Of a DNA stretch of 64,000 bases, positions 6,254-26,982 are shown piece by piece. Every line of letters starts with the position of its first letter. Within the stretch, counting starts at the first letter, position 1. The stretch lies in contig JAFSKR010000044.1 of assembly GCA_017448825.1 (NCBI GenBank), forward strand, positions 31,884 to 95,883, written 5' to 3'. Source of the stretch: Bacteroidaceae bacterium (lineage in GTDB: Bacteria > Bacteroidota > Bacteroidia > Bacteroidales > Bacteroidaceae). The position numbers and the translations under genes are program-made. The notes beneath the pieces are model-generated. The model saw only the letters and a list, made by a program, of their open reading frames with translations. It did no database searches and had not been told where the DNA came from.

Positions 6254-6283
6254 TTTATAAAAGGGTTTTAGTAGAGTCAGCTG

Positions 6284-6332
6284 CAAAGATAAGGATTTTA
6301 TTTCAGATTCAAACGATTCTGAAATAAAATCC
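6284..6332 (-). promoter_or_regulatory. Internal promoter overlaid by a perfect 15-bp inverted repeat
   Basis: On the minus strand TATCTTTG (6284-6291) matches the Bacteroidota -7 consensus TAnnTTTG, with TTTG (6310-6313) 18 bp upstream as a -33 element. A perfect inverted repeat has arms at 6293-6307 and 6318-6332 and a 10-nt loop. It covers the spacer and the -33 element. No T-run follows in the direction of transcription, so an operator is more likely than a terminator. It would separate transcription of symporter-epimerase-manA-GH36 from GH26-GH130. Confidence 0.55.
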
Positions 6333-6337
6333 ATTGA

Positions 6338-9061: not shown

Positions 9062-9212
9062 TGTACGAAAGTCTTACTTAATAAAGACTTTCTTCACTTA
9101 TCCACCTTTGTGCTTAGCGTCTGCTGGTTCGGGCTTTCTTCGTTGCCCTCCCATCAGCCGAGCACTGCACCCCAGGTGTACGAAAGTCTTACTTAATAAA
9201 GACTTTCTTCAC
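9062..9212 (-). repeat. 36-bp direct repeat of the 3' coding end (9062-9097 and 9177-9212)
   Basis: The last codons of the upstream gene (VKKVFIK and its stop, 9177-9212) recur exactly at 9062-9097, about 80 bp further along the 3' untranslated region. The second copy is preceded in frame by a stop codon, so it is not translated as an extension. It may be a remnant of a duplicated C-terminal tail or of a deleted paralogue. Confidence 0.75.
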
Positions 9213-10691: not shown

Positions 10692-12173
10692 ATGCGATTT
10701 GACAATAAAACACATAGCGTGAGGAAACTGCTGAAACCAATGCTCATCCTCCTGTGGGGTGTGGGATGTTTCCTGTTCTTCCAGATGAAGTATCCATACC
10801 ACTTCTTCTATCAAGAACAGAACCAACTCTTCTTGTTGGATGAGAACTATGTGCTTTCCTATTTCGATAAACCGGCATGGGTTGCTTGTCTGGTGGGCGA
10901 TTTCCTCACTCAGTTCTACTATTATCTTTATGCAGGGCCTGCCATCTTGACGACTGTGCTGTTGTTGCTGGGCGACCTCGTCAGACGAAGTCTCGACCGT
11001 TGTTTCAGTTATAGTGTACATAAAACGTTGGTCAGTTGGGGCAGTTTTGTCCTTGCACTGGTACTGATGACGTTGGAGGCGCGGCTCTCGCTCTATGAGG
11101 CATACCGATTGAGTGGTATTGTGGCGTTGACGGGTGGTGTTGCGTTGTGGTTGTTGCACGATGGACTTTGTGACAAGATTCCGTATTGGTGGATGCGTAC
11201 ACTCACGCTCTTCCTTTCCTCGTCACTGGCATTCTGGATGTTTGGCTGTGGCTATTTGGCACTCTTCTTGTTGGAGATGCTGAGAATCCTGCTGCCCACC
11301 TTCCGATTAAGACGACGTTATTGGGCGATTATACCTTTATTGTTGGTGGCACTGTTGCCCAATTTGCTGCTTCCGAAAGTGTCGGAGCATTATTGTCTTG
11401 GCAAGAAGGTCACATTGCTCTATCCTGGCGAAAGGAAATGGGTGGATGAATCGGCTGCGATGATGTTGGAGCGTAATTTCGCCTACGATAACGAATACTA
11501 CTTCGGTCACTATGAGAAGGTGGTGCAGATGTATGAGTCGAACACCGAACCCGAGACGGAGGAGATGTGTTTCTTCTATTGCCTCTCGCTGGCACAGCTC
11601 AATCTGCTGCCCGACCGCCTGATGACGATGGAACGACCGATTTTGGGTACGTTCTACAAAATTGGGCCTGAGACCCCGCTCTACACCATCAAGATGATAA
11701 ATGAACTGTATTATCTGTTGGGTGATATGACCTATGCCGAGCGTGCAGCCCTGCTGGCCAACACGTTCTCTCCCAATGGACGGAACGTGCGCATGGTCAA
11801 GCGGTTGGTGGAGGTGAACTTGGTGAAGGACGACATCCCAGCTGCGATGAAGTATTTGCGACTGTTGAGCAAGACGTGGGTCTATCGGCAGTGGGCTTCC
11901 GACCACACACCTGGCACGATGTCCGAGAAGGTGAAGGCAGAGATAGCGTATAAGCAGAAATATCTCAATCAGAGTGACCACATCCGTGTGGGCGACGATT
12001 GTTATACGATTCTTACGCAGTTGCTTGACAGCAACCCTGATAACATCGTGGCACTTGACTTCCTGCTGTGCAGCGACATCGTGGCTCGGCAGAAAAAAGT
12101 GTTCCTTCGTGATTACCAGCAATATGGTCCACGAAACAAAGCACTCTATCAACAAGCATTGACTCTCGAATAA
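10692..12173 (+). CDS. Polytopic membrane protein, DUF6057-like, copy 1
   Basis: A 493-residue protein with a conserved opening helix followed by an aromatic amphipathic stretch (KYPYHFFYQEQNQLFLLDEN), then about seven hydrophobic segments up to residue about 240. A soluble, helix-rich C-terminal half follows, resembling TPR-like repeats. I recall this family as DUF6057 and do not know its function. Two paralogues lie at 15023-16576 and 18056-19672; all share the Y-x-E-Q-x-Q-L-F-L signature near residue 40. Its stop codon overlaps the ATG of the next gene (TAATG), implying translational coupling to the CxxCH lipoprotein. Copy 1 is the most divergent of the three. Confidence 0.7.
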   Translation: MRFDNKTHSVRKLLKPMLILLWGVGCFLFFQMKYPYHFFYQEQNQLFLLDENYVLSYFDKPAWVACLVGDFLTQFYYYLYAGPAILTTVLLLLGDLVRRSLDRCFSYSVHKTLVSWGSFVLALVLMTLEARLSLYEAYRLSGIVALTGGVALWLLHDGLCDKIPYWWMRTLTLFLSSSLAFWMFGCGYLALFLLEMLRILLPTFRLRRRYWAIIPLLLVALLPNLLLPKVSEHYCLGKKVTLLYPGERKWVDESAAMMLERNFAYDNEYYFGHYEKVVQMYESNTEPETEEMCFFYCLSLAQLNLLPDRLMTMERPILGTFYKIGPETPLYTIKMINELYYLLGDMTYAERAALLANTFSPNGRNVRMVKRLVEVNLVKDDIPAAMKYLRLLSKTWVYRQWASDHTPGTMSEKVKAEIAYKQKYLNQSDHIRVGDDCYTILTQLLDSNPDNIVALDFLLCSDIVARQKKVFLRDYQQYGPRNKALYQQALTLE

Positions 12174-13612
12174 TGAAATACTGGTTCTACATACTCATCA
12201 CCATTTGGGTTTGCGGCGCTTGTGTACCGTCGCCTGAGCACGTGCAGAAGGTGGACAAAGCGGCACCGATTTATCCAGACTATGCCGATGTGACCATTCC
12301 TGTCAATATCGCGCCCCTGAACTTTCTCTTGCGGGACGATGCCTTGAGTGTGTACGTTTATATAGATAATGTGGTGTTTTACGCTGGGAGAGGGAATGAG
12401 GTGACATTTGACATGGAGGATTGGAAAGCGATGTTGGCAAAGAACGTGGGCAAGTCTGTGGAGGTGAAGGTGGTGGCAAAATATGCTGACGGATGGAAGG
12501 AGTACCGTTCGTTCCGTTGGAAGGTCGTTGCCGATGAGGTGGATCCCTACTTGACTTACCGACTGATAGAGCCAGATTATGAGGTGTTCAACAACTTGGT
12601 GTTGCAAGAACGGTGTGTGGAAAACTTCGATGTGCGTAACTTCAGCGACTATGGTATGGTGGGCAACCGCTGCATGAACTGCCATACGTATGCCAGTCAA
12701 GACCCCTCCACGTCGATGTTTTATCTGCGAGGGGAAGATGGGGGTGCCATCCTTAATGTGGATGGAAAACTGAAGAAGTTGGAACTGAAACGTGAGGATA
12801 TGGTGAGTGGTAGCGTCTATTTTGGTTTCTCACCTTCGGCGCGTTATGTGGTCTTCTCCACCAATGTGATTATTCCGGCTTTCCATGCTCAGGGCAGCAA
12901 GCGCATGGAGGTCTTTGACACCAAGAGTGATGTGTATGTGGCAGACTTGACCGACAGCCGCTTTATCGATAGTCCGTTGCTGGCTGACAGCACCCAACTG
13001 GAGACTTTCCCGACGTTCTCGCCTGATGGCAAGCATATTTATTATTGTACGGCTCACGTGCTCGACTCGTTGGGCGGGTTGACATCGCTAAAGTACAGTC
13101 TGTGTCGGGTGGCTTTCGACGAAGAGAACGGCACGATAGGTACGGAGGTTGATACGGTGTACAATGCCAAGATGATGGGAAAGAGTGTGTGCCATCCTCG
13201 TGTGAGTCCTGATGGACAATATCTTGTCTATACAGTGGCAAATTATGGTACTTTCCCAATATGGCATCGGGAAGCTGACTTGCAACTGATGAACCTCCAG
13301 ACAGGGGAAATCAACCTGATGGAGGAAGTGAACTCTTCAATGTCTGACACCTACCACTCTTGGTCTTCCAACAGCCGATGGTTGGCTTTTGCCTCGAAGC
13401 GAGACGATGGACTTTACGGCAAAGTCTATTACACCTATATCAACAAAAAAGGCGTGTGCTCGAAGCCTTTTGCCTTGCCTCAAGCACACCCCAGTTTTTA
13501 TGATGATTGTTTGAAATCGTTTAATGCCCCCGAACAGGGGAAAGGTCGTCTGCCGTTTTCCATCACGGACGTACACCAAGTGCTATCCGCTTCTCCGACA
13601 AAATTTCAGTAG
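12173..13612 (+). CDS. CxxCH beta-propeller (TolB/PD40-like) lipoprotein, copy 1
   Basis: A 479-residue predicted lipoprotein (lipobox CGAC, Cys17). A shared N-terminal motif APIYPDYADVTIPVNIAP (31-48) precedes a beta-rich domain. A single haem-type motif CMNCH (167-171) follows, then TolB/PD40 propeller blades such as FSPSARYVVFSTN, TFSPDGKHIYYC, VSPDGQYLVYTVANYGTFPIW and WSSNSRWLAFASKRDDGLYG. Paralogues at 13563-15026 and 16573-18045 keep the CxxCH. The C-terminus after SFNAPE departs from the paralogues, because the last 16 codons are read antisense through the end of the convergent copy (50-bp overlap). A rearranged 3' end is likely. Function unknown; covalent haem attachment is possible but unproven. 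Confidence 0.75.
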   Translation: MKYWFYILITIWVCGACVPSPEHVQKVDKAAPIYPDYADVTIPVNIAPLNFLLRDDALSVYVYIDNVVFYAGRGNEVTFDMEDWKAMLAKNVGKSVEVKVVAKYADGWKEYRSFRWKVVADEVDPYLTYRLIEPDYEVFNNLVLQERCVENFDVRNFSDYGMVGNRCMNCHTYASQDPSTSMFYLRGEDGGAILNVDGKLKKLELKREDMVSGSVYFGFSPSARYVVFSTNVIIPAFHAQGSKRMEVFDTKSDVYVADLTDSRFIDSPLLADSTQLETFPTFSPDGKHIYYCTAHVLDSLGGLTSLKYSLCRVAFDEENGTIGTEVDTVYNAKMMGKSVCHPRVSPDGQYLVYTVANYGTFPIWHREADLQLMNLQTGEINLMEEVNSSMSDTYHSWSSNSRWLAFASKRDDGLYGKVYYTYINKKGVCSKPFALPQAHPSFYDDCLKSFNAPEQGKGRLPFSITDVHQVLSASPTKFQ

Positions 13613-15026
13613 CGGTTTGTCGCTGGTCGATGTCCACTTTTTCTTTCGTGAAGTCAGGTACATTATAACTGTACATCAGCCGCTCGTAGAAGTGGCGAGG
13701 GACTTTCTGTGGTAAGAGGAACGGCTTGGTCGCTTTCCCCGTTTCGTCAATGGACGAGAGGTAGAGTCGCGTGTAAAGTCCGTCGCCTCGGCGTGAAGAG
13801 AAGACGAACCAACGTGAGTTTTCGCTCCAGTTGTGGTAACTCTCTGTATTGTCGCTGTTCACTTCGTTCAAAGCCTTCGTTTCCCCTGTCTGCAAATTCA
13901 TGAGCCAAAGGTCAGCCTCTTGGTGCCAAATGGGGAAAGTTCCATAGTCGGCAAGGGTGTACATCAACCACTTGCCGTCGTAAGATGGCTTGGGAAAGGC
14001 GATGCTCATGCTGTCAGCCTCGGCGTTGAGCAGCGTATCTACCGTTTCGCCATAGCGACCAGTTTGGGCATCGAAAGCGATGGAGCAGAGGTTGTAGCGT
14101 ACCTGTTTCAACGCCTGCGGATAACTTCTCTTCAAAGTTGTACAGAAGTAGAGTGTCTTGCCGTCGGGTGAAAAGGCTGGGTAGGTCTCATTGCTCTCTT
14201 TCCGGGTCAATAGTGGTGAGAGCAGGAGTTCGTTGGTTTCTGTGTCAAGGATTTGTAGGTCGCTTTCATGGTCGAAGACCTCAATGCGCTTTTCCTTGGT
14301 CATGTGGAAACCTTGCCGTGTGGTGTTGGTGGAGAATGCCACATAACGTCCGTCAGGATGCCAATATGGATAAACACAAAGTCCCAGTGTTTTGTCGGTC
14401 TTGGTGTTCAGCAGTGCTCGTTTACCATCTTTCTGCACCACGGTGGCACTGTTGGCACCACGTACATGAAAAAGAAATGCTTCCGGGTTGGTGCGGTTGC
14501 TGGTATGGCAGTTCACGCATGCTCCAGGTGTACGTGTGTTCACCATTATCTCATACTCGTCGAAGGTACTAAGGTCACGCTGATACAGCCCCATCTGGCT
14601 ATATACTTCATAGCCAGGTGCCACACGTCGATAGGTTAAGCCCCACTCGTCCAGCGGATGCTTGCTCACATACATCTTGAAGTCTTGATATTGAATCCAT
14701 TGCCCCTCCTTTTCCACACAGAGGGTGAAAGTCAGTTCGCCGCCTTGGTTGTTTGCCACCAGTTCATGCCACAGGTCAAGGTCGAAGTCTATCGTGCTCC
14801 CTTGGCAGTGCAGGCTGCCGCCCTTGCTACCCTTTACGGTCACATCGAGCCGCTGATAGTCACCGCCCTCATAGTCGAAATTCATGGGGGCAATGCCTAC
14901 GGGAATCGTCACATCCACGTAGTCGGGATAGATGGGTGGCAGTTCTCCCGCCTGTTTCGGGTTCTTCACCTGATGGGTACACGCCACCAGCAGGAGCAAG
15001 AGCCAATAGTGTATCGTTCTTTTCAT
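13563..15026 (-). CDS. CxxCH beta-propeller (TolB/PD40-like) lipoprotein, copy 2
   Basis: A 487-residue lipoprotein (LLVAC, Cys16) with the family motif PIYPDYVDVTIPVGIAPMNF (31-50), CVNCH (170-174) and propeller blades (for example WHPDGRYVAFSTN, FSPDGKTLYFC, YDGKWLMYTLADYGTFPIWH, WSENSRWFVFSSRRGDGLY). It is the last gene of a five-gene minus-strand operon. Its ATG overlaps the stop of the membrane-protein partner (ATGA). It ends convergently with copy 1, overlapping by 50 bp. The strictly kept Cys-x-x-Cys-His in an otherwise variable region argues for a real cofactor or metal site. The biochemical role is unknown. Confidence 0.78.
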   Translation of the reverse strand: MKRTIHYWLLLLLVACTHQVKNPKQAGELPPIYPDYVDVTIPVGIAPMNFDYEGGDYQRLDVTVKGSKGGSLHCQGSTIDFDLDLWHELVANNQGGELTFTLCVEKEGQWIQYQDFKMYVSKHPLDEWGLTYRRVAPGYEVYSQMGLYQRDLSTFDEYEIMVNTRTPGACVNCHTSNRTNPEAFLFHVRGANSATVVQKDGKRALLNTKTDKTLGLCVYPYWHPDGRYVAFSTNTTRQGFHMTKEKRIEVFDHESDLQILDTETNELLLSPLLTRKESNETYPAFSPDGKTLYFCTTLKRSYPQALKQVRYNLCSIAFDAQTGRYGETVDTLLNAEADSMSIAFPKPSYDGKWLMYTLADYGTFPIWHQEADLWLMNLQTGETKALNEVNSDNTESYHNWSENSRWFVFSSRRGDGLYTRLYLSSIDETGKATKPFLLPQKVPRHFYERLMYSYNVPDFTKEKVDIDQRQTATEILSEKRIALGVRP

Positions 15027-16576
15027 GGTTTCTTTTCGTTGAGGGTTTTCTGTACAAAGTCTTTGTACATCAAGTATTTTTGCTGATTGCCTTCCAGTTG
15101 AGGCAGGAGCAGAAGATACTGCATGGCGAGGAAGTTTTGGGAGTTCTGTAGGACGAGTTGCCCCATCACTTTGTCTATCTCTTGTTCACTGAATAAGAAG
15201 TCTTTCTCTAATTGGAAACGGCGCATCTGCCCATAAACAGGATGGTTATTGATGGCATCTTCGTTGCCTAACAGACGCATCGTCTCGTCTGCCCACCTCT
15301 TGTAGAAGAGGGTCTTCTGCAAGAGTTTCAAGTACTTACCAGCCACGTCATACTGCCCATTGATGAGGTTGGTCTCTGCCAGTCGTTTGAGCAGACGCGC
15401 GCTCTTGGTGTTGTCAGGAATGGCTTCCATTGCCTCAAAGTCAAACTGTTGGGCAGTATTCACCAGTCCCAGATGATAGTATATTTCGGCTGTCATAAGT
15501 GACGATTCAAAGTTCATGTTGAACGAAGGGAATACCCCCTCTCTTCCGTTCTGATAGAACTGCATGGCACGGCTGTTCATCTCGCCCGTCATGCCCAGTG
15601 CCAAGTTGAGCGAGGCCACGGTGAGTGGGGTGGTGGGGTTCTTTTTCTGAGCCGTGGCGACAATTTTGTCCCACTGCTGTCTTCTGACCATGAAGTCATA
15701 GTGGAGCACTTCGTACTTATCTGTGTCGTAGGCCGTAGGAATGGCAAAGCCCCCCATTGCGGCAACAGCTACAGTAGCCACGACGCCAGCAGCCTGTGCC
15801 CGTTTCCCCTCCAGTTTCGGCAGATGCTGTATCAGTAAGGGCACCAGCACAAAAGCGAGCATGATGATGTAGTGGATGACGGCCACCTCGTAGAGGTTGA
15901 TGTTGTAGTTGATACCGACAAACAGGCGGAACAGAGGGTAGGGCACCCATGGTGCTGTGGCGATGATGCAAGCCACCGAATAGAGGGCGGCACCACTTGC
16001 CAGTGCATAGTTCTTATGGTCAAGCACCTCCTTCAGTGCCACATACAGTCCCAACATCATCACGACGGGACCTGCCAACCAGTGCAGCATTGGCATGGCG
16101 ACCGCTGCATAGAGGATTTTACTCCATGCAGATTGCTTGGCAGGATAAGCTATCATGCTCAACTGTGCCATCAGCAATGCCACCACATACGTGAATTTCA
16201 TGTTCTCATCGCCCATATAGAACCATACCAGCAGCACGGGTACAAACGATAGTGCATACCACACGCTACGACTCTCATCACGCTCACGCTGCCCTAATCT
16301 CCAGACCCCTATTTGCATCAGCACATACACCATAGCAATGATGGCTGCTCCCAACTTTAGGTTGTTGTAGAATTGCACCAAGAATTCTGCCCCATAACGT
16401 GCGATGCCCGCTGGTGTGGTAAGCCGTTCCATGAAGAAATCGTAGTCGAACAGGAAGAGTTGTATCTGTTCATGATAAGCCAATGCTTGTGGATAACGCA
16501 ATGCCCAAAAGCACCACGCCGCTACTGCTAACGCGATAGTCAGCAAGACCTTTCCGTATTTTTTGAGGATATTCAT
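15023..16576 (-). CDS. Polytopic membrane protein, DUF6057-like, copy 2
   Basis: A 517-residue protein from the ATG at 16576; an upstream in-frame start at 16612 would overlap the preceding gene by 40 bp and is less likely. The N-terminal helix is followed by RYPQALAYHEQIQLFLFDYD, then eight or nine membrane segments to about residue 270. A cytoplasmic or periplasmic helical region then ends with KDFLFSEQEIDKVMGQLVLQ. The start codon overlaps the stop of copy 3 of the CxxCH lipoprotein, and its own stop overlaps the start of copy 2 (both ATGA). Such tight coupling suggests a fixed ratio or complex between membrane protein and lipoprotein. No enzymatic motif is recognised. Confidence 0.72.
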   Translation of the reverse strand: MNILKKYGKVLLTIALAVAAWCFWALRYPQALAYHEQIQLFLFDYDFFMERLTTPAGIARYGAEFLVQFYNNLKLGAAIIAMVYVLMQIGVWRLGQRERDESRSVWYALSFVPVLLVWFYMGDENMKFTYVVALLMAQLSMIAYPAKQSAWSKILYAAVAMPMLHWLAGPVVMMLGLYVALKEVLDHKNYALASGAALYSVACIIATAPWVPYPLFRLFVGINYNINLYEVAVIHYIIMLAFVLVPLLIQHLPKLEGKRAQAAGVVATVAVAAMGGFAIPTAYDTDKYEVLHYDFMVRRQQWDKIVATAQKKNPTTPLTVASLNLALGMTGEMNSRAMQFYQNGREGVFPSFNMNFESSLMTAEIYYHLGLVNTAQQFDFEAMEAIPDNTKSARLLKRLAETNLINGQYDVAGKYLKLLQKTLFYKRWADETMRLLGNEDAINNHPVYGQMRRFQLEKDFLFSEQEIDKVMGQLVLQNSQNFLAMQYLLLLPQLEGNQQKYLMYKDFVQKTLNEKKP

Positions 16577-18045
16577 TTGAGGGTCACTTGTATGCGTTGG
16601 TTGTCTAAACAATTCCTTCCTGCTGTGCGAGCATCAAACCGCACCTTCTCAGTCGTGAAGTCAGGGCAATTATAGGAATCAAGCATCTCATGATAGAATT
16701 TCTTGGGATTTCGTTGTGGCAGCAAGAAGGGTTTAGTGGCGTTTCCCTTGTCGTCAATGCTGGCAATGAACGCTTGGTTATACATACCGTCGCCCCGTCG
16801 TGAAGAGAACACAAACCAATGGCTGTCAGTGCTCCAGTTGTGGAAACTATCCACATCGGGGCTGTTCACTTCGGAGAGGGAACGTGTCTTGCCTGTCTGC
16901 AAGTCCATCAGCCAAAGGTCTGCTTCGGTGTGGTTAACCGGGAAGTTTCCGAAGTTGGTCACACTATACATCAGCCATCGTCCATCGTAGGAGGGACGTG
17001 GATAGGTGAAGCTTTGGCCAAGGGTGGCAGCGGAGAGCAGCGTATCGACCTCCGTTCCGAATGTGCCCGTCTGTGCATCGAAGGCAATCCGGCAGAGGCT
17101 GTACTTCGCCTTTTCATATTCTGCGGGCATACGGCAGGGCTTCGATGTGCAGAAGTAAAGTGTTTTGCCGTCGGCTGAGAAAACGGGGTAAGTCTCCCAA
17201 TCAACCGTTTGCAGCAGCGGACAAAGCAGGAGTTCGTGGGTGCGCACGTCCATCACCAGCACGTCGCTCATGGTGTCATACACTTCGATGCGCTTGTCTT
17301 TCCCCACGAAGAAGCTTTGGTGGATGCTGTTCACCGACGAGGTGAGATAGTGTCCTGACGGATGCCAATAACTGTAGCCGAAGTTGGCCTTGGTGCTGTC
17401 GGTCTTAGTGTTCAGCCATGTCTGCTTGCCGTCCGTTTGGATGACCGTCCCCCCCCTCTCCCCACGCAGGTGGATAAGAAACTGCTCACTGCTGCCTCGA
17501 TTGGCGGTGTGGCAGTTCATGCACTGTCCAGGCACTGCCGACTCCTGCAAGATGGGGAACTCATCAAAACTGTGCAAGTCGCGTTGATAGATGCCGATAT
17601 TGCCACCCACCTCATATCCAGGTGCTATGCGTCGATAAGTGATGCCGAAATCGGTGAGCGGACAAGGGCTGACGTGCATCGTAAAGTCCTGATACTGTAT
17701 CCACTCGTCCTTTTTGAGTGCCGACACCGTGAAGCGGATGTCAGTGCCTTGGTTCTGTGCTGTCAGTGCATGCCATTCGTCGATGTCGAAATCTGCATAC
17801 GCACCTTGTGCGTGCAGTTCGCCCCCTTTGCCGCCTCGTGCCACCACATCTATCAGTTCCACCTCGTCATCCGTCATGTTGAAGTCCATTGGCGCGATGC
17901 CTACGGGGATGGTCACATCGATGTAGTCAGGATAGATGTCGGGCAGCTCCTGCACGACGGTCGGATTCTCCACCTGCTTCATGCAAGAGGAGAGCAACAG
18001 TGCCGTCAGGCAGCCTATATATATATAATATGTGTATCGCTTCAT
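16573..18045 (-). CDS. CxxCH beta-propeller (TolB/PD40-like) lipoprotein, copy 3
   Basis: A 490-residue lipoprotein (LLSSC, Cys21) with PDIYPDYIDVTIPVGIAPMD (35-54), CMNCH (175-179) followed by TANRGSSEQFLIHLRG, and propeller blades (WHPSGHYLTSSVN, FSADGKTLYFC, YDGRWLMYSVTNFGNFPVNH, WSTDSHWFVFSSRRGDG). It is closer to copy 2 than to copy 1 over its whole length, consistent with a recent tandem duplication of the membrane/lipoprotein pair. It lies 10 bp after the third membrane-protein copy. A structural, signalling or redox role at the outer membrane or periplasm is conceivable; nothing in the sequence decides between them. Confidence 0.78.
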   Translation of the reverse strand: MKRYTYYIYIGCLTALLLSSCMKQVENPTVVQELPDIYPDYIDVTIPVGIAPMDFNMTDDEVELIDVVARGGKGGELHAQGAYADFDIDEWHALTAQNQGTDIRFTVSALKKDEWIQYQDFTMHVSPCPLTDFGITYRRIAPGYEVGGNIGIYQRDLHSFDEFPILQESAVPGQCMNCHTANRGSSEQFLIHLRGERGGTVIQTDGKQTWLNTKTDSTKANFGYSYWHPSGHYLTSSVNSIHQSFFVGKDKRIEVYDTMSDVLVMDVRTHELLLCPLLQTVDWETYPVFSADGKTLYFCTSKPCRMPAEYEKAKYSLCRIAFDAQTGTFGTEVDTLLSAATLGQSFTYPRPSYDGRWLMYSVTNFGNFPVNHTEADLWLMDLQTGKTRSLSEVNSPDVDSFHNWSTDSHWFVFSSRRGDGMYNQAFIASIDDKGNATKPFLLPQRNPKKFYHEMLDSYNCPDFTTEKVRFDARTAGRNCLDNQRIQVTLK

Positions 18046-18055
18046 CTGTTACTGG

Positions 18056-19672
18056 TCAATGTGCGGAGTGATTACTTTCTGTAGCGGCCGATGGGTGGTG
18101 CTGTGTCATCTGTCTCACGTAAGCTGCGTAGGCAGAGCCAGGCACATCGCCTTGCGCTTGGATGCACTTCATGGCATCCTGATAGGTGTAAGGCATCATC
18201 GTGTAGCCTCCGTATCGTTGTGCCCATCCCAGATACTGCTGGAAACTGGCCATGTCGCCCTTCAGCAGCAGTTGGGCAAGGAAGTATTCGAGTGCCATCT
18301 TGTTTTCGGGATTGTTGATGAACAGGCGTCCCAGCATCTTGTCCAACTCACCGTAGTTATACAGGAAGTCCTCTTGATAGCGCAACTTCCGTAGTTTGCC
18401 CCACTGCGGATGGGCATCAATCCATGCTTCGTTGCCGAGGTAAGACCGCGCATCCTTCGCCCAGTTGCGGTAGAAGAGCGACTGCTGCAAGATGTCCAGA
18501 TACTTCTCTGCCACGGCATATTTGCCATTGATGATGCAGCACTCAGCGATCCGTTTCATCAAGCGTCCACTTTTCTTGCCGTTGAGAATGCTTTCTTGCA
18601 GGTCGAAGGCATAGCGCATCGACTCGTTCACCATGCCAAGGCGGTAGAACGCCTCCATCGTGGGCAGATTGGATGTGAGGTCACGCACCATCGGCATGAT
18701 GAGGGCATCCTCGCCACTTTGGTAGAAAGCGAACTGCCGTTCTGCCAGTCGTCCCGTCATGGCAAGGGACAGGTTCACACATTCGGAAGAGAAGTTGACA
18801 GGCACTTGATACTTCTCTGCTCGTGTCACCACCTCCTGCCAACGCTCATGGCGGATGAGGTAATCCTGCCGAATCAGTTCGTATTTATCGCTGTCGAAGC
18901 GGAAGAAAGTGCACATCACGGCGATGATGGCGAGAGCCGCCAAACGCCAGAGCCTGTATCGCTTGAACGACTTCCCCCATGCAGCCAACACCACAATGAT
19001 AACAGGAATCAACACTTGAAAGGGAGGCAGTTTCATCGGAATGCGGTAATAGTTAGTGCCCATTATGGCGGATGTGAGCGGCCATTGACGAAGCAGTGTA
19101 CTGACCACCACCCATTGGATGATGAGCAGATACAAGAGCAATCCCACTGTTTGCCAATTCTTTCGCTGAATCAATCGAAGGAACACATACAGCCATGCCA
19201 CAGGTCCTATCAGCCCATACAGCACGGGCACGGTCAGCAGGTCGAAGAGCGGATGCACCTTCTGCATCATGAGCCGGGTCCCCATTGCCAGTATCAGTGC
19301 CACCACATAGCTCATCAGCACGCTCTCATCGCCCAAATATGCCAACAGGAGAAAGGTGGGCACGAAGGCATACCACCTGTTGTCCACCACTTTCGTCGTC
19401 AACCACCAGAAAACGGTCAGTAATAAGGCCAACACCAATGCGCCCAACCATTCTACATAGTAAAACTGCACGAAGAACTCGCCTAACCAGTCTGCCAAGC
19501 CACCCACCTGTAGGACATCCGTCCAAAAGTAATCGCCTGTCCAAAGAAACAGCTGATACTGTTCTTGGTACGATAAGGCGTGGGGATAGCCGAGATACCA
19601 AAACAGGAATGCAGACACGACCAGCAGCAGTGACAGAAAGTAAAGAGAGTATTGGGACACGAACGCTTTCAT
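18056..19672 (-). CDS. Polytopic membrane protein, DUF6057-like, copy 3
   Basis: A 538-residue membrane protein opening with a hydrophobic helix and GYPHALSYQEQYQLFLWTGD, the same signature as copies 1 and 2. About nine membrane segments reach residue about 270. The soluble C-terminal part holds repeated helix pairs (for example EKYLDILQQSLFYRNWAKDA, close to copy 2's GKYLKLLQKTLFYKRWADET). It starts 2 bp after the stop of the DUF4369 lipoprotein and precedes copy 3 of the CxxCH lipoprotein by 10 bp, so the five genes 20307 to 13563 form one operon. Function unknown. Confidence 0.72.
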   Translation of the reverse strand: MKAFVSQYSLYFLSLLLVVSAFLFWYLGYPHALSYQEQYQLFLWTGDYFWTDVLQVGGLADWLGEFFVQFYYVEWLGALVLALLLTVFWWLTTKVVDNRWYAFVPTFLLLAYLGDESVLMSYVVALILAMGTRLMMQKVHPLFDLLTVPVLYGLIGPVAWLYVFLRLIQRKNWQTVGLLLYLLIIQWVVVSTLLRQWPLTSAIMGTNYYRIPMKLPPFQVLIPVIIVVLAAWGKSFKRYRLWRLAALAIIAVMCTFFRFDSDKYELIRQDYLIRHERWQEVVTRAEKYQVPVNFSSECVNLSLAMTGRLAERQFAFYQSGEDALIMPMVRDLTSNLPTMEAFYRLGMVNESMRYAFDLQESILNGKKSGRLMKRIAECCIINGKYAVAEKYLDILQQSLFYRNWAKDARSYLGNEAWIDAHPQWGKLRKLRYQEDFLYNYGELDKMLGRLFINNPENKMALEYFLAQLLLKGDMASFQQYLGWAQRYGGYTMMPYTYQDAMKCIQAQGDVPGSAYAAYVRQMTQHHPSAATESNHSAH

Positions 19673-19674
19673 TC

Positions 19675-20307
19675 TCAGTCAAGCGGAATTTCTTGGATGG
19701 TGCCATCAGGCATCTGACGTTTGTAGCTGGTGGGGAACATTCCACCGAGGAAGTCTTTCAGCGGACCTTCAGGAAGACCTGCCGCCATCTTTCGGGTCTG
19801 TTCCTTATAGGCATGATGCACACTGTCAGCGTACGCCTTGATGGTGTTGGCACGAAGAGAATCGCCTCCGAAATGCGCATCCTGATAGAACGAGATGAGC
19901 TGCCTATACTGCTTGTTGTGCACCTCTGTCAGTTGCTTCCACTGTTGCAACACCTCATTGTTTGGCGTGCCGTGGGCGGAACTGACCGAGTCGATGGTCA
20001 CATACACATCGCCTGGTTCCTCCACCACCAACAAGTCTTGCAGCCCGAAGCGGAAATGGTAGTCCATACGCAGGATGCCCATCATGTGCTTGGTGGTCGT
20101 GATTTCAAACTTCCTGTCCTTCACAAAGCACGAGTCGATGCCCACGCTGTCGCGTATCGTCTTGTCCATCGCAATCAAGTAGATGCATTTGTCGTTATAC
20201 TTGTCGTCGGGCAGGGTGCCGTGAATGCGACACACCTTGTCATCGTGTTCACAACTTGCCAATGCCAAGATAAGCAAGGCAAGGCACATCATAAAATGAC
20301 TTTTCAT
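19675..20307 (-). CDS. DUF4369-type lipoprotein without thioredoxin domain
   Basis: A 210-residue lipoprotein (LALASC, Cys19) with the N-terminal pattern CRIHGTLPDDKYNDKCIYLI and FEITTTKHMMGILRMDYHF seen in DUF4369 domains. Those usually precede a TlpA/thioredoxin domain in Bacteroidota periplasmic oxidoreductases. Here the protein ends after a helical linker (about 120-210) with no CxxC thioredoxin motif, so it is a domain-only version. It leads the operon of paired membrane and CxxCH proteins. Its family link to thiol-disulfide and cytochrome maturation proteins, together with downstream CxxCH genes, is suggestive but not proof of a redox role. Confidence 0.7.
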   Translation of the reverse strand: MKSHFMMCLALLILALASCEHDDKVCRIHGTLPDDKYNDKCIYLIAMDKTIRDSVGIDSCFVKDRKFEITTTKHMMGILRMDYHFRFGLQDLLVVEEPGDVYVTIDSVSSAHGTPNNEVLQQWKQLTEVHNKQYRQLISFYQDAHFGGDSLRANTIKAYADSVHHAYKEQTRKMAAGLPEGPLKDFLGGMFPTSYKRQMPDGTIQEIPLD

Positions 20308-20470: not shown

Positions 20471-21943
20471 TTACTTTGCCATGAATCGCCAGAAGGTTGC
20501 CTCGCCCCATGCACCCAGTCCATCAAAGGCACCACCGTCGGGATAGACAAGCACGAAGTGGGATCCGTCAGAGTAAACCATTTCGAAGGTGGTAGGCATA
20601 TTGCCGCCAGAGTTGATTTCGTAAGGCCAGAGGATAGATCCTGCAGTGGTCTCCAGATTGGCCACCTTCCATTCTGTAGCTACTGATTGGTCAATCGTGT
20701 AGTAACCGCTGCGGATTTGCTTGCCGCTGGCATCGTAAGACTTGATTTCGTCGGCCGTAATAATCATGTAAGCGTTGGTGTCATCATCACCAGTCACAGT
20801 GTCGCTGCCACGGTGATTCTGCTGGTCGGCAAAACCTTCAGTGGAGGTGACGCCCCACCACTGGCCATTGTGCGATGTATAGACATCTATGCCTGCACCA
20901 CCGCAGTAGCCCATGTTGCCCCAGAACTCCTTGCCATCAGAGGTGTCCCAAGTCCAAACCTTGCCCGCATCAGCATAGTTAGTGAGGTTGCCCTCCACAT
21001 CGGATGAAGAGGCGAAGTGCCAGAATGTGGCTTCCCCCCATGCGCCCAGTCCATCGAAGGCACCGCCGTCGGGATAGACGAGGCACATCTTGTCGGCTGA
21101 CAAGTAGCAGAGGTCGAACTCTGTTGGCATATTGCCATTGGAGTTAATTTCGTAGGGCCAAAGGATAGCACCCGCTGAAGTGTGGAGGGTACCTACTTTC
21201 CAAGCCGAAGCGTCACTGGCATCGTAGTCCTGGATTTCGAAAGTACCCGTGCGGATGAGTTGGCCGTTAGCGTCGTAAGATTTGATGGTACCGTCTTCCG
21301 ACCAAATCATGAAGGCATTGGTATCGTCATCGCCTGTCACAGTGTCGCTGCCACGGTGATTCTGTTGGTCTGCAAAACCCTCTGTGGAGCTGACACCCCA
21401 CCACTGCCCGTTGTGATTAAGTGCCACATCAGAACCAGCACCACCGCAGTAGCCCATATTGCCCCAAAACTCTTTGCCGTCGGTGGTGTCCCATTTCCAA
21501 ACCTTCGAACCTGAGTTTGAAACAACAAGCTTTAGGTCGAGAGCCATCTCTGAGGGCACATATACATTGACGGTCTTGCTCAGTTCGGTCATTGTGCCAT
21601 TGGGGTTGGGAATGCGCACGTAAAATGTCTGCTCGTTGCTTGATCCACGGCTTGGAATAATGCTGAAATAGCCCGATGTGCCAGAAGCGAGCACACGCTC
21701 TGTGCCTTCGTCGTTGATAGTGAAGATGGAAATGATGGTGGCGGGGGAAGTCGTATAGGTGAAGTAGTTGCCGTCTGCTGCCAATTCACCATCAATATCC
21801 GTCTGAACGATGTTGACAATCTCATTCGCTTGTTCCTCTGTCAGCACTTGGGAACTGGGCGAACCCTCATCAGCCACATGTGGGTCGCAGGCTGCCACAG
21901 CCACACCTGCTGCCACCATTATTGCATAATATATTTTTTTCAT
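20471..21943 (-). CDS. Surface glycan-binding lipoprotein with two tandem repeats
   Basis: A 490-residue lipoprotein (VAAC, Cys19) in the third position after susC and susD, where surface glycan-binding proteins are found. After an Ig-like region (about 30-140) come two repeats of about 165 residues (147-311 and 328-488). They share KEFWGNMGYCGGAG, HNGQWWGV, STEGFADQQNHRGSDTVTGD, ILWPYEINS and YPDGGAFDGLGAWGEATFW nearly word for word. Exposed Trp/Tyr within each repeat suit sugar stacking. The repeat identity points to a recent internal duplication giving two binding sites. The ligand is unknown; beta-mannan or glucomannan would fit the surroundings. Confidence 0.8.
   Translation of the reverse strand: MKKIYYAIMVAAGVAVAACDPHVADEGSPSSQVLTEEQANEIVNIVQTDIDGELAADGNYFTYTTSPATIISIFTINDEGTERVLASGTSGYFSIIPSRGSSNEQTFYVRIPNPNGTMTELSKTVNVYVPSEMALDLKLVVSNSGSKVWKWDTTDGKEFWGNMGYCGGAGSDVALNHNGQWWGVSSTEGFADQQNHRGSDTVTGDDDTNAFMIWSEDGTIKSYDANGQLIRTGTFEIQDYDASDASAWKVGTLHTSAGAILWPYEINSNGNMPTEFDLCYLSADKMCLVYPDGGAFDGLGAWGEATFWHFASSSDVEGNLTNYADAGKVWTWDTSDGKEFWGNMGYCGGAGIDVYTSHNGQWWGVTSTEGFADQQNHRGSDTVTGDDDTNAYMIITADEIKSYDASGKQIRSGYYTIDQSVATEWKVANLETTAGSILWPYEINSGGNMPTTFEMVYSDGSHFVLVYPDGGAFDGLGAWGEATFWRFMAK
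20480..20962 (-). repeat. Internal duplication, second unit
   Basis: This codes residues 328-488 of the binding lipoprotein and is strongly similar at DNA and protein level to 21011-21505. Confidence 0.85.
21011..21505 (-). repeat. Internal duplication, first unit
   Basis: This codes residues 147-311. Its partner is 20480-20962. Blocks such as the QQNHRGSDTVTGDDDTNA coding stretch are almost unchanged between the units. Confidence 0.85.
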
Positions 21944-21964: not shown

Positions 21965-23752
21965 TTAGTTTTCCCTCCAGCCAGAGTACTGACCAGCATT
22001 ATTCTCATAACCAGGGTTCTGCTTCAGAACATTGGAGATGTCGATTTCACTTTCAGGGATTTTGAAGAAACCTGCCGTTGCGTTGTAGCGAGCCGTGTAT
22101 CCGCCAATTTGTTGCGAAGCCTTGTTGGTAGAGGCGGCACCCGAGTAGATGACGGGCTGACCCTCCTGCTTTTCGAGGGCGGCAGCGGCGATGTGCCAGC
22201 GGCGGATGTCGTTCCAGCGGAGACCTTCGCAAGCCAGCTCCCAGCGGCGCTCGTTCTGCAGGGCGGTCAGTGAGTAGCTCACAGCTGATAGCCCAGCGCG
22301 CGCACGAACCTTGTTCATTCCTGTGGCATCTTCCTTCAGCTCCGACTGCATGAGTAGTACGTCGGCAAAGCGGAGCAGCACGAGGTCGTGCAGGTCGTCA
22401 AGCTGGAAGTTCCACTGTGTGGCTGATGGCCAAGAGTCTGCGTCATACATATACTCGTTGAAGTTATAGTAGCCGTTGCTGCCGTTGGCATAGACAGGAG
22501 CCCACTTTTTGTTGAAGTAGTCCGTACCCTGCACCCAGTCAGACGATGGCGTGTAGGCGGGCAGTTCCGACAGCTTCTGGATAGTGGCATCACGACGTGG
22601 GTCGCTTGGCTCTGCGCTGCTCCAGTCTGAATAGAGGTTGGGAGTGACAGGTCCTGCGCCCCAACCCTGGCCGAACGGATAGGTGTTGGCTGCATCCTGG
22701 CCACCACGGATGCCGAAGTGCAGCGCATAGCCGTTGGCATAACCGATGGTGGTTTGCCAAGAAGCGTAAGAGTTGTACTTGATCATGAACATCGATTCGG
22801 GGTTGACAGCGTTGTCGTCTTCCACCCACTTGTAGCCCTTACCGTCAGTGTAGGGGTCGCTGATGCCGTCGGCCAAGGTCACACGGTTTGTGTAGGCCCA
22901 GAGGTTCTGGAAGGTTGGCACGAGTGAGTAGCCAGAGTTATCCACACAGTCGTCGATGTAGGTAATCACATCTTTCTTGGTCAGTGTTGTACCATCGGGC
23001 AAATCTACCGAGGTCAGTGGCGAATAGCTGGTGCTCACGAGGTCAGACAATTCTGTTCCGTTGCCGTACATACCTGTGTAGAACAACCATGCACGTGCCA
23101 GCAGACCCTCTGCTACGTACTTGTCCACATGGCCATCGACAAGTTTGCCGTTCACAGCCGTCTGTCCTGCTGGCATGATGTCGGCAGCCGTCTTGAAGTC
23201 AAGCAGAATCTGTCCCCAGAGTTCAGCTGGGGTAGCTTGAGGAACATCCTCTGTGGTGGCTGAAGTGATAAGTGGAATGTTACCATAGAAGGAGCCCAGT
23301 TCATAATAGAAGAAGCCACGCAGGATGAGTGCCTCGCCCAGTGCCTGGTTTTTGGCTGCCTCTGATGGGTAGTTGGATGGCTTGTCAATATTACCGATGA
23401 TGTTGTTGGCACGGGCAATGCCAGCATAACGGTCAGCGTAGAACTGCTGTGTCATGTTGTTCTGATAGTTGCCTATCAGGTCGTAGGCCTGCATGGTCTG
23501 GTCAGTCTCACCGCCACCGCCAAACATGTCGTCGGACGCATTCTGTGCCGCATAGATGAACGAGCACTGTGGGCTGGCGTTTACCACACTGAGATTCTGG
23601 TAAACACCCGTCACCAACTGCTGCAGATCGCTGTAGGTCTCAGGGAAGGTTGCGGTGGTCTTCTCTGTGTAGTTGGTGCTGTCCAGCGAGTCGTCACACG
23701 ATGTCGCCAGCACCATTGCAGCAGCAGCAAAAAGATATACTAATTTCTTCAT
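21965..23752 (-). CDS. susD: SusD/RagB-family outer-membrane glycan-binding lipoprotein
   Basis: A 595-residue lipoprotein (LATSC, Cys19) that works as the lid and glycan receptor of a SusCD importer. SusD features are the N-terminal helical region (DLQQLVTGVYQNLSV), IARANNIIGNID, ALGEALILRGFFYYELGSFY-GNIPL and the C-terminal RADVLLMQSEL-like segment (here LRFADVLLMQSELKED) followed by LACEGLRWNDIRRW. It lies 17 bp after susC and 21 bp before the binding lipoprotein, a standard order. The glycan specificity cannot be read from the sequence. Confidence 0.95.
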   Translation of the reverse strand: MKKLVYLFAAAAMVLATSCDDSLDSTNYTEKTTATFPETYSDLQQLVTGVYQNLSVVNASPQCSFIYAAQNASDDMFGGGGETDQTMQAYDLIGNYQNNMTQQFYADRYAGIARANNIIGNIDKPSNYPSEAAKNQALGEALILRGFFYYELGSFYGNIPLITSATTEDVPQATPAELWGQILLDFKTAADIMPAGQTAVNGKLVDGHVDKYVAEGLLARAWLFYTGMYGNGTELSDLVSTSYSPLTSVDLPDGTTLTKKDVITYIDDCVDNSGYSLVPTFQNLWAYTNRVTLADGISDPYTDGKGYKWVEDDNAVNPESMFMIKYNSYASWQTTIGYANGYALHFGIRGGQDAANTYPFGQGWGAGPVTPNLYSDWSSAEPSDPRRDATIQKLSELPAYTPSSDWVQGTDYFNKKWAPVYANGSNGYYNFNEYMYDADSWPSATQWNFQLDDLHDLVLLRFADVLLMQSELKEDATGMNKVRARAGLSAVSYSLTALQNERRWELACEGLRWNDIRRWHIAAAALEKQEGQPVIYSGAASTNKASQQIGGYTARYNATAGFFKIPESEIDISNVLKQNPGYENNAGQYSGWREN

Positions 23753-23769: not shown

Positions 23770-26700
23770 TTAGAATTTGAGATTTACGCCAACCATAAAG
23801 GTACGAGGTGCAGGATAGTAGCCAAGGTCAAGACCTGACGCCCATGAGTCGGCTGCACCAGCGTTGTTACCATTTTCTGGATCCATACCATTGTAACCTG
23901 TGATGGTGAAGAGGTTCTGGATGGTGAAGTAGAGACGTGCCGACTGGATGGGCAGTTTCTTGAAGCCAGTCTTGAAGTTATAGCCCAATGTGATGTTCTG
24001 AAGACGAACGTAGTCAGCATTGTGGCAGAAGATGTCAGAGTTTTCTGTCCAGTTTACACTCTGGCTCGACTTCTCCAAGCGTGGAAGGGTGTTGGATGTG
24101 CCCTCACCGTGCCAGTACTTGTACACCTCTGTGGTGTAGTTCTCGTACCAAGCAGAGCCTTCATTGCGCCAATACTTGTAAATCTGGTTGCCAAATGAAC
24201 CATAAAACGTCAGGCCAAGGTCGAAGCCCTTATAGTCGACCTGCAAGCCGAGACCACCTGTCCATGTGGGGTGTGGGCTACCAATTTCCACCTTGTCGTC
24301 GTCGTTCACCTGGCCGTCGCCGTTCGTATCGACAAACTTCAGGTCGCCAGGCTTGATGCCTGTGCCCTGCTTTGAGTTGGCAGCGTCGCCAAGACAGTTG
24401 GCATCCAGATAAGCCTGAAGGTCTGTCTCGTTCTGAATCACGCCGGCAGTCTTGTAGCCGATGAAGTAACCGATAGGATGGCCTACCTCCATACGGTAAA
24501 CGTAAGTTCCCTGGGTCTGGAGAGCCGTCTCGCTACCATTGATGTAGCCGTTTTCGTTAGCCACCTTGGTCACCTTGTTTTTGTTGTGAGCCAAGTTGAA
24601 GTTGATGCTGTAGCCCAGGTCGCCGATGTGGTCTTTCCAGTTCACAGCGAACTCGATACCTGTGTTGCGCACGTTGCCGCCGTTCACGTATGGTGCATCC
24701 AGACCGTACTCAAGGAGCACAGGAGCCTGAATCAGCAAGTCTTTCGTGTTCTTGATGTACCAGTCGAAAGAGAAAGAGAGGCGGTTGTTCAGGAAACGGG
24801 TATCAAGACCGATGTCCCACTGCTCTGAGGTTTCCCATGTGGTGTTCTCGTTCACCAGACTGCCCACGTAACCGCCCTGTGAATAGCCGTTCTTCTGGTT
24901 GAAAGGATACTGGCCTTTCTCGTCGAAGATGACAGTGGCGAGATAGTTGAAATTGGCGATGTTGCAATTACCGTTCTGACCGAAAGAAGCACGAATCTTG
25001 GCAAAATCGAGCCAAGACTGGGTGGACTCCATAAACTTCTCGTTGGAGAGCACCCAACCGGCAGAAACTGATGGGAACCAACCCCAGCGGTGACCCTTGG
25101 CGAAGTTGGAAGAACCATCGGCACGGAGCACGACGCTGGCCATATAGGTCTCCTTGTAGTCGTAGTTGATACGGCCGAAATAGGAAGCAATCGCGCTGTC
25201 ACCCCAAGGATAACCACCCACGGTGACACCAGTAGAAGCTTGGGCGTTGGTCAGGTATGCGCGCTGGAAGTCAGAGAAAAGAAGGTCGGAAGAATTTCCT
25301 TCCATGTATTCGCCCATGTTGTAGCCGCTGCGCTCCAGCGAACCACCAGCGAGTATGTCGAAGTGGTGGGCATCGGCGAGGTCGAACTTATAGTTCAGCG
25401 TGTGCTCCATCGACCAACTCCAGCCTGTGCTCATGTTCTGGTTCACGCTGTTCACGTTGCGTGTCTTGTTCACGTTGGCGTTGTCATCATATATGGGCAG
25501 GTAGCCTCGCCATGAGCTGGAACTGTGCTTGTAGCCAAACTGTGACTTCCATGTGAGGCCCTTCAGAGGCTGAATCTTCACGTAGGCAGTCATGCTGAGC
25601 GAGTAGTTCTTGCTTTTGTTGTTAGCGTCCTGGCTGTTTGCCAAATCATAAATGGGGTTACTGAAATACATACCAGCACCTGGATATGCCTTCAGACCGC
25701 TGGTCTCTGACCCGTAATCGTCGCCGCCGAAGTATTCACCATTCTCATTATATAGAGGAATGATTGGCACTGCGCGGAGAGCGTCGGAAATGGGGTTGGC
25801 ATACTGGCTTCCGATGGAGATACCGCTCTTCTCGTTATGGTTATAGTAGAGGTTCTCACCAAAGGTGACGATGTCGAGGTCGCCCTTTCTCCACAGCACA
25901 TGCTCAGAGTTGAAGCGTGCGGTGAAGCGGCTGTAGTCAGAGGCTGCGGGACCACCGAAGATACCGTTTTGCTTCATGTAGGAGAAACCAGAGGCGTAAA
26001 CGCTGCGGTCACTTCCGCCCGTGATGTTGATGGCGTGTGAAGTGGTGAGGGCGTTCTTCTTGCGGATTTCCTCCAGCCAGTTGGTGCCGTTGTCAGCTCC
26101 GCTCATGTAGGCATCGTACTTGTCCTGCCCAACGATGTTCACCCAGTCGAACGGGGTGCCACCCGAGTTGACGTTGATTTGGTCCATCACGCCCATGTAT
26201 TGCTTGGCCGTGAGGAGCTGAGGCATCTTGTAGGCGTTCTGCCAACCGAAATAGCCGTCGTAGCTCACTTGCATTTTGCCAGCTTTACCTTGCTTGGTGG
26301 TGATGAGGATGACACCATTGGCAGCACGGGCACCATAGATGGCTGCAGATGCAGCATCCTTCAGCACGTCGATGCGTTCGATGTCGCCCGGAGCCAGCGA
26401 GTTGATGTCGCCAGCCACACCGTCGATGATGTAGAGCGGAGTGGTTGAACCGTTAGTACCAGCACCACGGATGTTGATGTTGAAGCCTTCACCTGGCTGA
26501 CCAGACTTGCTCTGGATGTTCACACCAGGGGTCTGGCTTTGGAGGGCACCCAATACGGCCGTGGTGTTGAGCTTGGCGATATCGTCACCTTTTACTTCCA
26601 CGGTAGCACCTGTGACTAACTTCTTCTTCATCGTACCATAACCGACTACGACCACGTCTTCGAGGAGTTCGTCATCGGTTTTGAGTGTAATGGTCAGGTT

Positions 26701-26982
26701 TTTGCGACCTGCGAGAGGAACCTCCAGTGTCTCATAACCTACGAAAGAAACAACGATGGTCGCCTTGGGGTCTGACACCTTGAAGGAGAAGTTACCGTCC
26801 AAGTCGGTAGCGGCACCATTGGTGGTACCTTTCTCACGTACAGAGGCGCCAGGAACTGGCTCACCACTCGTTTCACGAACTACACCAGTAATGGTGGTTT
26901 GAGCAATTGCAGCGATTGGCAACAGCATCATGCAGGCTGTCATCACTAATGCTCGCAAGTTCATAAAATTACTTTGAAACAT
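23770..26982 (-). CDS. susC: SusC/RagA-family TonB-dependent glycan transporter
   Basis: A 1070-residue outer-membrane transporter that imports oligosaccharides with SusD. It has a signal peptide (to about residue 28), a carboxypeptidase-like regulatory domain (about 30-105, GVVRETSGEPVPGASVREKG), then the TonB-box-like region with LLEDVVVVGYGTMKKK. The plug domain follows (SQTPGVNIQSKSGQPGEGFN, LYIIDGVAGDINSL, IERIDVLKDAASAAIYGARA, ANGVILITTKQGK). A long beta-barrel ends in MVGVNLKF with a terminal Phe. An alternative start is the ATG at 26964. No sigma/anti-sigma extension is present, so control is probably by a two-component or other regulator. No CAZyme shares the operon. Confidence 0.96.
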   Translation of the reverse strand: MFQSNFMNLRALVMTACMMLLPIAAIAQTTITGVVRETSGEPVPGASVREKGTTNGAATDLDGNFSFKVSDPKATIVVSFVGYETLEVPLAGRKNLTITLKTDDELLEDVVVVGYGTMKKKLVTGATVEVKGDDIAKLNTTAVLGALQSQTPGVNIQSKSGQPGEGFNINIRGAGTNGSTTPLYIIDGVAGDINSLAPGDIERIDVLKDAASAAIYGARAANGVILITTKQGKAGKMQVSYDGYFGWQNAYKMPQLLTAKQYMGVMDQINVNSGGTPFDWVNIVGQDKYDAYMSGADNGTNWLEEIRKKNALTTSHAINITGGSDRSVYASGFSYMKQNGIFGGPAASDYSRFTARFNSEHVLWRKGDLDIVTFGENLYYNHNEKSGISIGSQYANPISDALRAVPIIPLYNENGEYFGGDDYGSETSGLKAYPGAGMYFSNPIYDLANSQDANNKSKNYSLSMTAYVKIQPLKGLTWKSQFGYKHSSSSWRGYLPIYDDNANVNKTRNVNSVNQNMSTGWSWSMEHTLNYKFDLADAHHFDILAGGSLERSGYNMGEYMEGNSSDLLFSDFQRAYLTNAQASTGVTVGGYPWGDSAIASYFGRINYDYKETYMASVVLRADGSSNFAKGHRWGWFPSVSAGWVLSNEKFMESTQSWLDFAKIRASFGQNGNCNIANFNYLATVIFDEKGQYPFNQKNGYSQGGYVGSLVNENTTWETSEQWDIGLDTRFLNNRLSFSFDWYIKNTKDLLIQAPVLLEYGLDAPYVNGGNVRNTGIEFAVNWKDHIGDLGYSINFNLAHNKNKVTKVANENGYINGSETALQTQGTYVYRMEVGHPIGYFIGYKTAGVIQNETDLQAYLDANCLGDAANSKQGTGIKPGDLKFVDTNGDGQVNDDDKVEIGSPHPTWTGGLGLQVDYKGFDLGLTFYGSFGNQIYKYWRNEGSAWYENYTTEVYKYWHGEGTSNTLPRLEKSSQSVNWTENSDIFCHNADYVRLQNITLGYNFKTGFKKLPIQSARLYFTIQNLFTITGYNGMDPENGNNAGAADSWASGLDLGYYPAPRTFMVGVNLKF

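Follow-up and report, generated by a model that had tools for sequence, protein, structure and literature searches.

In a 64,000-nucleotide stretch of DNA from a Bacteroidaceae bacterium (assembly GCA_017448825.1, contig JAFSKR010000044.1, positions 31,884 to 95,883; hereafter the window), three adjacent gene pairs each couple a polytopic DUF6057 membrane protein to a PD40 lipoprotein with a single CxxCH motif, and each pair would encode one envelope complex built around a c-type haem. In the proposed arrangement, the propeller is TolB-like, with six PD40 blades, and its first blade carries the CxNCH on the innermost strand; CcsA-type (system II) maturation would attach the haem, which would be held at the mouth of the central channel by the motif histidine (H171 in lipA) and by H395 at the matching place of another blade. 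The lipoprotein would face the periplasm and bind its own DUF6057 partner, whose polytopic membrane part is followed by a TPR-like C-terminal region. In this presumed anaerobe, the most likely role of the three pairs would be to serve as a redox relay when sugars are taken up or processed in the periplasm. We assign a probability of roughly 0.6 to this explanation as a whole, an envelope haem complex and redox relay in a galactomannan locus; redox work for sugar uptake, taken on its own, is our best guess, at somewhat short of an even chance. Haem attachment, bis-His ligation, physical contact between the two proteins, the placing of the TPR part in the periplasm and electron transfer are what we infer; the pairing and co-inheritance of the two genes, the conservation pattern, the joint loss of the motif and H395, the co-occurrence with maturation genes and the locus context were observed.

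The three pairs (A, B and C) fill positions 10692-20307, as read from open reading frames and a Pfam scan. Pair A, on the forward strand, consists of memA (10692..12173; DUF6057, 493 aa, PF19529 E 4.4e-100) and lipA (12173..13612), whose product has an N-terminal beta domain, a TolB-like PD40 propeller, CMNCH at residues 167-171 and the candidate second ligand H395. Pairs B and C lie on the opposite strand and comprise lipB (13563..15026; paralogous lipoprotein, CVNCH 170-174), memB (15023..16576; DUF6057, 517 aa from the ATG at 16576, PF19529 E 2.7e-139, the frame being open further, from a TTG at 16612), lipC (16573..18045; paralogous lipoprotein, CMNCH 175-179) and memC (18056..19672; DUF6057, 538 aa, PF19529 E 5.2e-129). 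lipA and lipB are convergent and overlap by 50 bp. Stop and start codons overlap by 1 or 4 nt at three junctions, TAATG (12171-12175), ATGA (15023-15026) and ATGA (16573-16576), and gaps of 10 nt and 2 nt separate memC from lipC and the neighbouring DUF4369 gene from memC. An earlier note made from the sequence alone had described the three pairs, the three overlapping junctions and the position of the CxxCH after a shared motif, and all of these were confirmed, with PF19529 in every membrane protein and PD40 in every lipoprotein. It also had a DUF4369 lipoprotein leading two of the pairs, which is corrected here: the window holds a single one (19675..20307, reverse strand, 210 aa, PF14289 33.1 bits), followed by pairs C and B on the same strand. 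The source is a draft genome of 2.95 Mb, 86% complete, in which the window lies on contig C33, and the closest named relatives of lipA come from metagenome-assembled genomes that bear the labels Bacteroidales and Bacteroidaceae, one of them obtained from roe deer rumen, at 77-78% identity. A fourth lipoprotein of the same genome is found on contig C48 (L007:2520-7639), with a DUF6057 gene on each side and all genes on one strand.

PD40 is the sole Pfam family above cut-off in the three window lipoproteins, each of which carries a lipobox cysteine and one CxxCH, starting at residue 167, 170 or 175 and preceded by PIYPDYADVTIPVNIAPL, PIYPDYVDVTIPVGIAPM and DIYPDYIDVTIPVGIAPM, respectively. From composition, about 0.005 CxxCH motifs per protein would be expected by chance. 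The motif is kept in 119 of 121 homologues in a first set and in 133 of 136 near homologues in a larger alignment, from which one of 137 rows was removed for a gap at the key column and duplicate sequences were collapsed. In the 121-row alignment the lipobox cysteine is found in all 116 rows with a residue at that column, which indicates export from the cytoplasm; the only other nearly invariant cysteines are the two of the motif, and the motif histidine is equally conserved. The lipoprotein export signal (LES) rule for surface export calls for acidic residues at +2 to +6, and at least two such residues occur in 3 of the 99 lipoproteins with a recognised lipobox (121 in total) versus 14 of 18 SusD controls (20 in total). 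Since this signal is rare behind the lipobox, the lipoprotein probably faces the periplasm. A sequence search of solved structures with the lipoprotein gave just weak TolB-type and other propeller matches. In our estimate this is very probably a c-type haem protein whose site, borne by the propeller, is unusual. Among the matches listed in literature searches, none fitted the combination of PD40 with c-type cytochrome, nor, judged by title and the start of the abstract, that of propeller with CxxCH in Bacteroidetes.

A second histidine is mostly kept along with the motif. H395 (lipA numbering) is present in 130 of the 133 near homologues that keep CxxCH, and the three that lack CxxCH, from two lineages, all have alanine there. 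These paralogues without motif or second histidine are L113:9156-10667, L114:9062-10459 and L178:1480-2649; L113 retains a DUF6057 neighbour, and none is visible for L114 in the region read. Among 64 positions conserved at 90% or more, just E246 and H395 are altered in all three sequences, and the hand-computed odds of the losses coinciding are 20/410,040 = 5e-5, with only two of the losses independent. Distant PD40 relatives (563-950 aa) carry C[GA]NCH together with a second site, WH[SA][WF]SPN, in 11 of 11 cases, and the histidine of the latter aligns to the 395 column. As read from these sequences, both histidines stand three residues ahead of a PD40 'SPDGK'-like turn, on two blades. A bis-His site at the propeller channel, with the histidines at matching places of PD40 blade motifs, is therefore probable. 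The distant C[GA]NCH propellers include L079:775-3036, L152, L153, L154, L155, L156, L158, L159 and L160; several carry a TPR tail and three adjoin a chorismatase gene.

The same joint loss can be read differently. The covalent haem may be structural or sensing, stabilising the propeller or switching the complex rather than transferring electrons, and we regard this as a real possibility at well under even odds. A six-coordinate bis-His haem without an obvious redox partner would fit it, as would the fact that two lineages dropped the motif and second histidine together and kept the rest of the protein. TfcP of Myxococcus xanthus provides a precedent, as a noncanonical cytochrome c reported to have unusual haem ligation and probably not to transfer electrons (PMC8833165). 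TfcP differs in that its partner is PilY1. Two points described below, the occurrence of copies within sugar-uptake loci and the connection with cytochrome operons, fit redox work at least equally.

DUF6057 and the lipoprotein form a conserved two-gene unit, inherited and duplicated together. The lipoprotein was found in 29 of 247 Bacteroidales genomes, and 57 of its 63 full-length copies (E below 1e-80, weaker matches being left out of the count) adjoin a DUF6057 gene. In 48 copies DUF6057 is upstream on the same strand by a scripted rule that misfiles window pair A; in one of the 57 it lies on the opposite strand, and six of the 63 have no adjoining match. In the wider phylum 5 of 296 genomes match, with near homologues in three, the source genome included. 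The genome samples were evenly drawn and searched with a profile, and the statistics ignore phylogeny; 33 named loci, used below for neighbourhoods, were collected with a pattern that includes the CxxCH peptide and are therefore biased towards it. For 94 pairs in 71 loci, the trees of the two proteins agree with a Mantel r of 0.932, which none of 1000 permutations reached (maximum 0.097). Where a locus holds more than one pair, swapping partners within it fits worse than the true pairing in 24 of 24 comparisons. Linked inheritance alone gives part of this match; duplicates were re-shuffled in no tested case. A physical complex is supported by the near-constant pairing and the matched trees.

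The PF19529 scores of the three membrane proteins (337, 466 and 432 bits) lie far above the gathering cut-off of 29.8; the name DUF6057 was not found in the literature searched, where its function is undescribed. The memC model (predicted local distance difference test score, pLDDT, 86.1) consists of membrane helices and a TPR-like helical C-terminal part, and the matches listed for it by Foldseek and VIA-align cover the TPR part. A GT-C glycosyltransferase was considered from the order of the helices in the model, and the membrane part was not covered by the matches listed. A sequence search of solved structures returned three chance-level matches. The conserved charged or polar residues of memC are E37, Q38, Q40 and Q69, together with an R/E/K/W set in the TPR part. 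Counts by the positive-inside rule gave no clear answer as to the side of the TPR part; since distant relatives fuse a TPR tail to the CxNCH propeller, it plausibly meets the propeller on the same, periplasmic side. A reading of DUF6057 as a b-type haem protein was rejected, as no histidine is conserved at 85% among 44 aligned sequences. TPR proteins take part in system I and Nrf maturation, and DUF6057 might by analogy be a dedicated assembly factor, an apoprotein chaperone or haem ligase for the lipoprotein rather than its working partner. A polytopic TPR-bearing protein next to each lipoprotein, with solved folds matching that part, would suit such a role, but one partner per lipoprotein, co-duplicated and unswapped in every comparison, is more than it needs, and the missing histidine also speaks against it; we consider it unlikely.

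The three pairs sit inside a galactomannan utilisation locus. On the reverse strand the order is SusC-type TonB-dependent transporter (23770..26982; PF07715 Plug, PF13715), SusD-family protein (21965..23752; PF07980), a lipoprotein with an internal duplication, the DUF4369 lipoprotein, memC, lipC, memB and lipB. Beyond pair A and a 438-aa protein, the Pfam scan identified glycoside hydrolases GH26 (7555-8703) and GH130 (6338-7552), an MFS_2 sugar transporter (4880-6334) and a GlcNAc-2-epimerase type epimerase (3546-4817), all on the reverse strand, followed by phosphomannose isomerase (2577-3542) and GH36 (291-2525). In Parabacteroides distasonis the same order recurs, with DUF4369-(DUF6057-PD40)x2 running directly into GH26, GH130, MFS_2 and an epimerase of the same family; the record is filed as a plasmid and carries biosynthesis and repair genes, so that it is probably a piece of the chromosome. 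Two other copies lie elsewhere in P. distasonis, one of them behind SusC/SusD, and all four lipoproteins examined in this species have CxNCH. The series SusC-SusD-lipoprotein-DUF4369-(DUF6057-PD40)x2 recurs in Carboxylicivirga linearis (L037) and, with one extra gene between the pairs, in L081. In 16 of the 33 named loci the lipoprotein has a DUF4369 gene at a distance of at most 4 kb, often ahead of pair B (e.g., L012, L016). Of 40 lipoprotein regions, 11 have SusC/D genes at most 4 kb away and 15 at most 8 kb away; the corresponding counts for 34 chorismatase regions, taken as controls, are 1 (p 0.004) and 2 (p 0.002), and a near lipoprotein is present as well in two of these controls (L170, L171). 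Since 25 of the 40 lipoprotein regions have no SusC/D within 8 kb, the link to sugar loci is a tendency. Literature searches on polysaccharide utilisation loci with c-type cytochrome found nothing related, and DUF4369 was absent among the matches listed for mannan with DUF4369.

Genes for haem attachment accompany the lipoprotein. Each of the 29 lipoprotein genomes has a CcsA-type gene (PF01578), compared with 207 of the 247 Bacteroidales genomes as a whole (p 0.004), and the source genome has a CcsB-like gene at 128 bits, below the equivalog cut-off of 188. The envelope complex with haem or metal suggested in the earlier note thus gains from the pairing, the matched trees, the kept CxxCH and the CcsA-type genes, and stands as supported rather than proven; a lack of CxxCH in most homologues or a missing maturation system would have spoken against it, and neither was found. 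That note did not mention the surrounding galactomannan locus, H395, the link to the chorismatase or the distant relatives with a fused TPR part.

A chorismatase-like protein (some 300-410 aa), which shares its two domains with the FkbO/Hyg5 chorismatases, is linked to the lipoprotein and often to other cytochrome systems. Its gene is found no more than 8 kb from the lipoprotein in 8 of the 33 named and 6 of the 40 sampled regions; besides the source genome, the phylum sample contains two genomes with a near homologue, and in both the gene adjoins the pair. High-scoring matches occur in 41 of 247 genomes, 11 of 52 having been left out for only short or weak matches: they are present in 26 of the 29 lipoprotein genomes and in 15 of the remaining 218 (Fisher p 2e-21, descent ignored). 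Neighbourhoods were read in 21 chorismatase regions, made up of the own locus and most others from the upper match list, excluding those already beside the lipoprotein, and of four from further down (G389:C2, G527, G516, G451). With families named from scanned members, these hold a CcsBA-type gene in 10 regions (7 of 18 without three of the last four, which were chosen for a nearby CcsA match), a di-haem oxidoreductase in 8 and a small CxxCH protein in 8; 13 of the 21 contain CcsBA or a c-type cytochrome, small CxxCH or HZS_alpha-type protein. In 13 further regions a distant CxNCH propeller was found three times, a near lipoprotein twice, a cytochrome/MauG-type protein once and none of these seven times. 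On contig C21 of the source genome the order is porin-like, imelysin, di-haem oxidoreductase, porin-like, CxxCH lipoprotein, CcsBA-type and chorismatase (L008:8956-10095), 'porin-like' denoting likeness to annotated P. distasonis genes. In P. distasonis one set of genes is ordered porin-imelysin-di-haem-porin-chorismatase, and ccsA has another chorismatase-like gene near it. Where the chorismatase neighbourhoods have a common denominator, it is c-type haem. Literature searches on chorismatase with cytochrome c in Bacteroid- or with Parabacteroides returned nothing related and nothing, respectively.

With these data, a structural or thiol-active cysteine pair or a haem-free metal site, kept open in the earlier note as a structural pair, is unlikely: DUF4369 is elsewhere fused to TlpA-type thioredoxins, and the motif is on a beta strand in the model, but its histidine is conserved like the cysteines, the second histidine was lost alongside, every lipoprotein genome has a CcsA-type gene and the chorismatase is linked to cytochrome operons.

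Several observations weigh against the proposed haem complex and redox relay. Class I cytochromes carry CxxCH on a helix, and the lipoprotein model has it on a beta strand; the classical cytochrome c domain (PF00034/PF13442) was not among the matches up to E 1 for any window lipoprotein. With CcsA-type genes in 84% of the order, their co-occurrence with the lipoprotein carries little weight, and PF01578 takes in CcmC-type proteins too. Three lipoproteins, among them the fourth copy of the source genome, have proline at 395 despite CxxCH, and H395 is therefore not always needed. The topology of DUF6057 is ambiguous (7 or 8 transmembrane helices), it has no conserved histidine that would point to electron exchange with the lipoprotein, and it was not beside the distant C[GA]NCH propellers in the regions read. 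Some chorismatase control regions span less sequence than those around the lipoprotein, and this works in favour of the SusC/D contrast. A good chorismatase match is missing from 3 of the 29 lipoprotein genomes, and no c-type cytochrome, CcsBA or CxNCH propeller is near the chorismatase in 8 of the 21 and 7 of the 13 further regions.

The lipoprotein can be compared with several known propeller proteins. It resembles TolB of the Tol-Pal system in its six-bladed PD40 propeller, but the window lipoproteins score 24.5-35.6 bits against TIGR02800, whose cut-off is 343.15, and TolB is not known to have a CxxCH. The cytochrome cd1 nitrite reductase NirS, which combines a propeller with a tetrapyrrole, was matched to the lipoprotein model by Foldseek (E 3e-7); NirS has eight blades, non-covalent haem d1 and a separate cytochrome c domain, and its family PF02239 was not found in the window lipoproteins. 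In the alpha subunit of hydrazine synthase (5c2v_D) the haems are located in domains behind the propeller (PMC12758564). The middle domain of that subunit, PF18582, was not found in the window lipoproteins by the same tool that finds it in L134 and L143. The lipoprotein is thus set apart from class I cytochrome c, TolB and hydrazine synthase, whose defining features were looked for and were absent. The chorismatase-like neighbour, compared with FkbO, Hyg5 and XanB2, matches PF21168 and PF01042 and scores up to 111 bits against TIGR04444, below the cut-off of 325.

The glycan utilisation loci of Bacteroidales in gut and rumen are thought of as serving binding, transport and hydrolysis. If the proposed haem complex is real, it would add a redox step absent from this model, give a function to DUF6057 and to this PD40 subfamily, and extend the known ways of holding haem c to a CxxCH on a propeller blade; the chorismatase link would be a lead into the cytochrome c biology of anaerobes. 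A bolder joint claim, that the lipoproteins are a new class of c-type haem protein with a two-His propeller clamp, in obligate complex with DUF6057, and form a chorismatase-dependent redox module of sugar uptake in anaerobic Bacteroidales, with chorismate as the source of an aromatic compound that serves periplasmic haem proteins as cofactor or electron carrier, is doubtful. In Acidiphilium a chorismatase-like gene lies beside SCP2 and U32 genes, which resemble the UbiT/U/V set, and this suggests hydroxybenzoate as the product.

Further observations were made around these genes. The chorismatase-like gene accompanies several c-type cytochrome systems in Bacteroidales (L008, L103, L037, L115, L116 and others), of the imelysin/di-haem/CcsBA, YncE/HZS-alpha/CcsA and PD40 lipoprotein kinds. 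Two HZS_alpha-domain proteins, L134:4499-8494 and L143:2151-4655, contain two CxxCH motifs and lie near chorismatase and CcsBA-type genes; that of L134 also has NPCBM and sulfatase-modifying-factor domains. Within the window, the lipoprotein between SusD and DUF4369 (20471..21943, reverse strand, 490 aa) has no family above cut-off, the two similar halves of its internal duplication contain DGKEFWGNMGYCGGAG, and it is perhaps a surface glycan-binding protein. The 438-aa protein beside GH26 (9189-10505), also without a family above cut-off and with a weak CIA30 match, is present in the relative L010 as well. A GH67 alpha-glucuronidase gene (27355-29259) lies directly upstream of SusC, where a xylan locus perhaps abuts the mannan locus.

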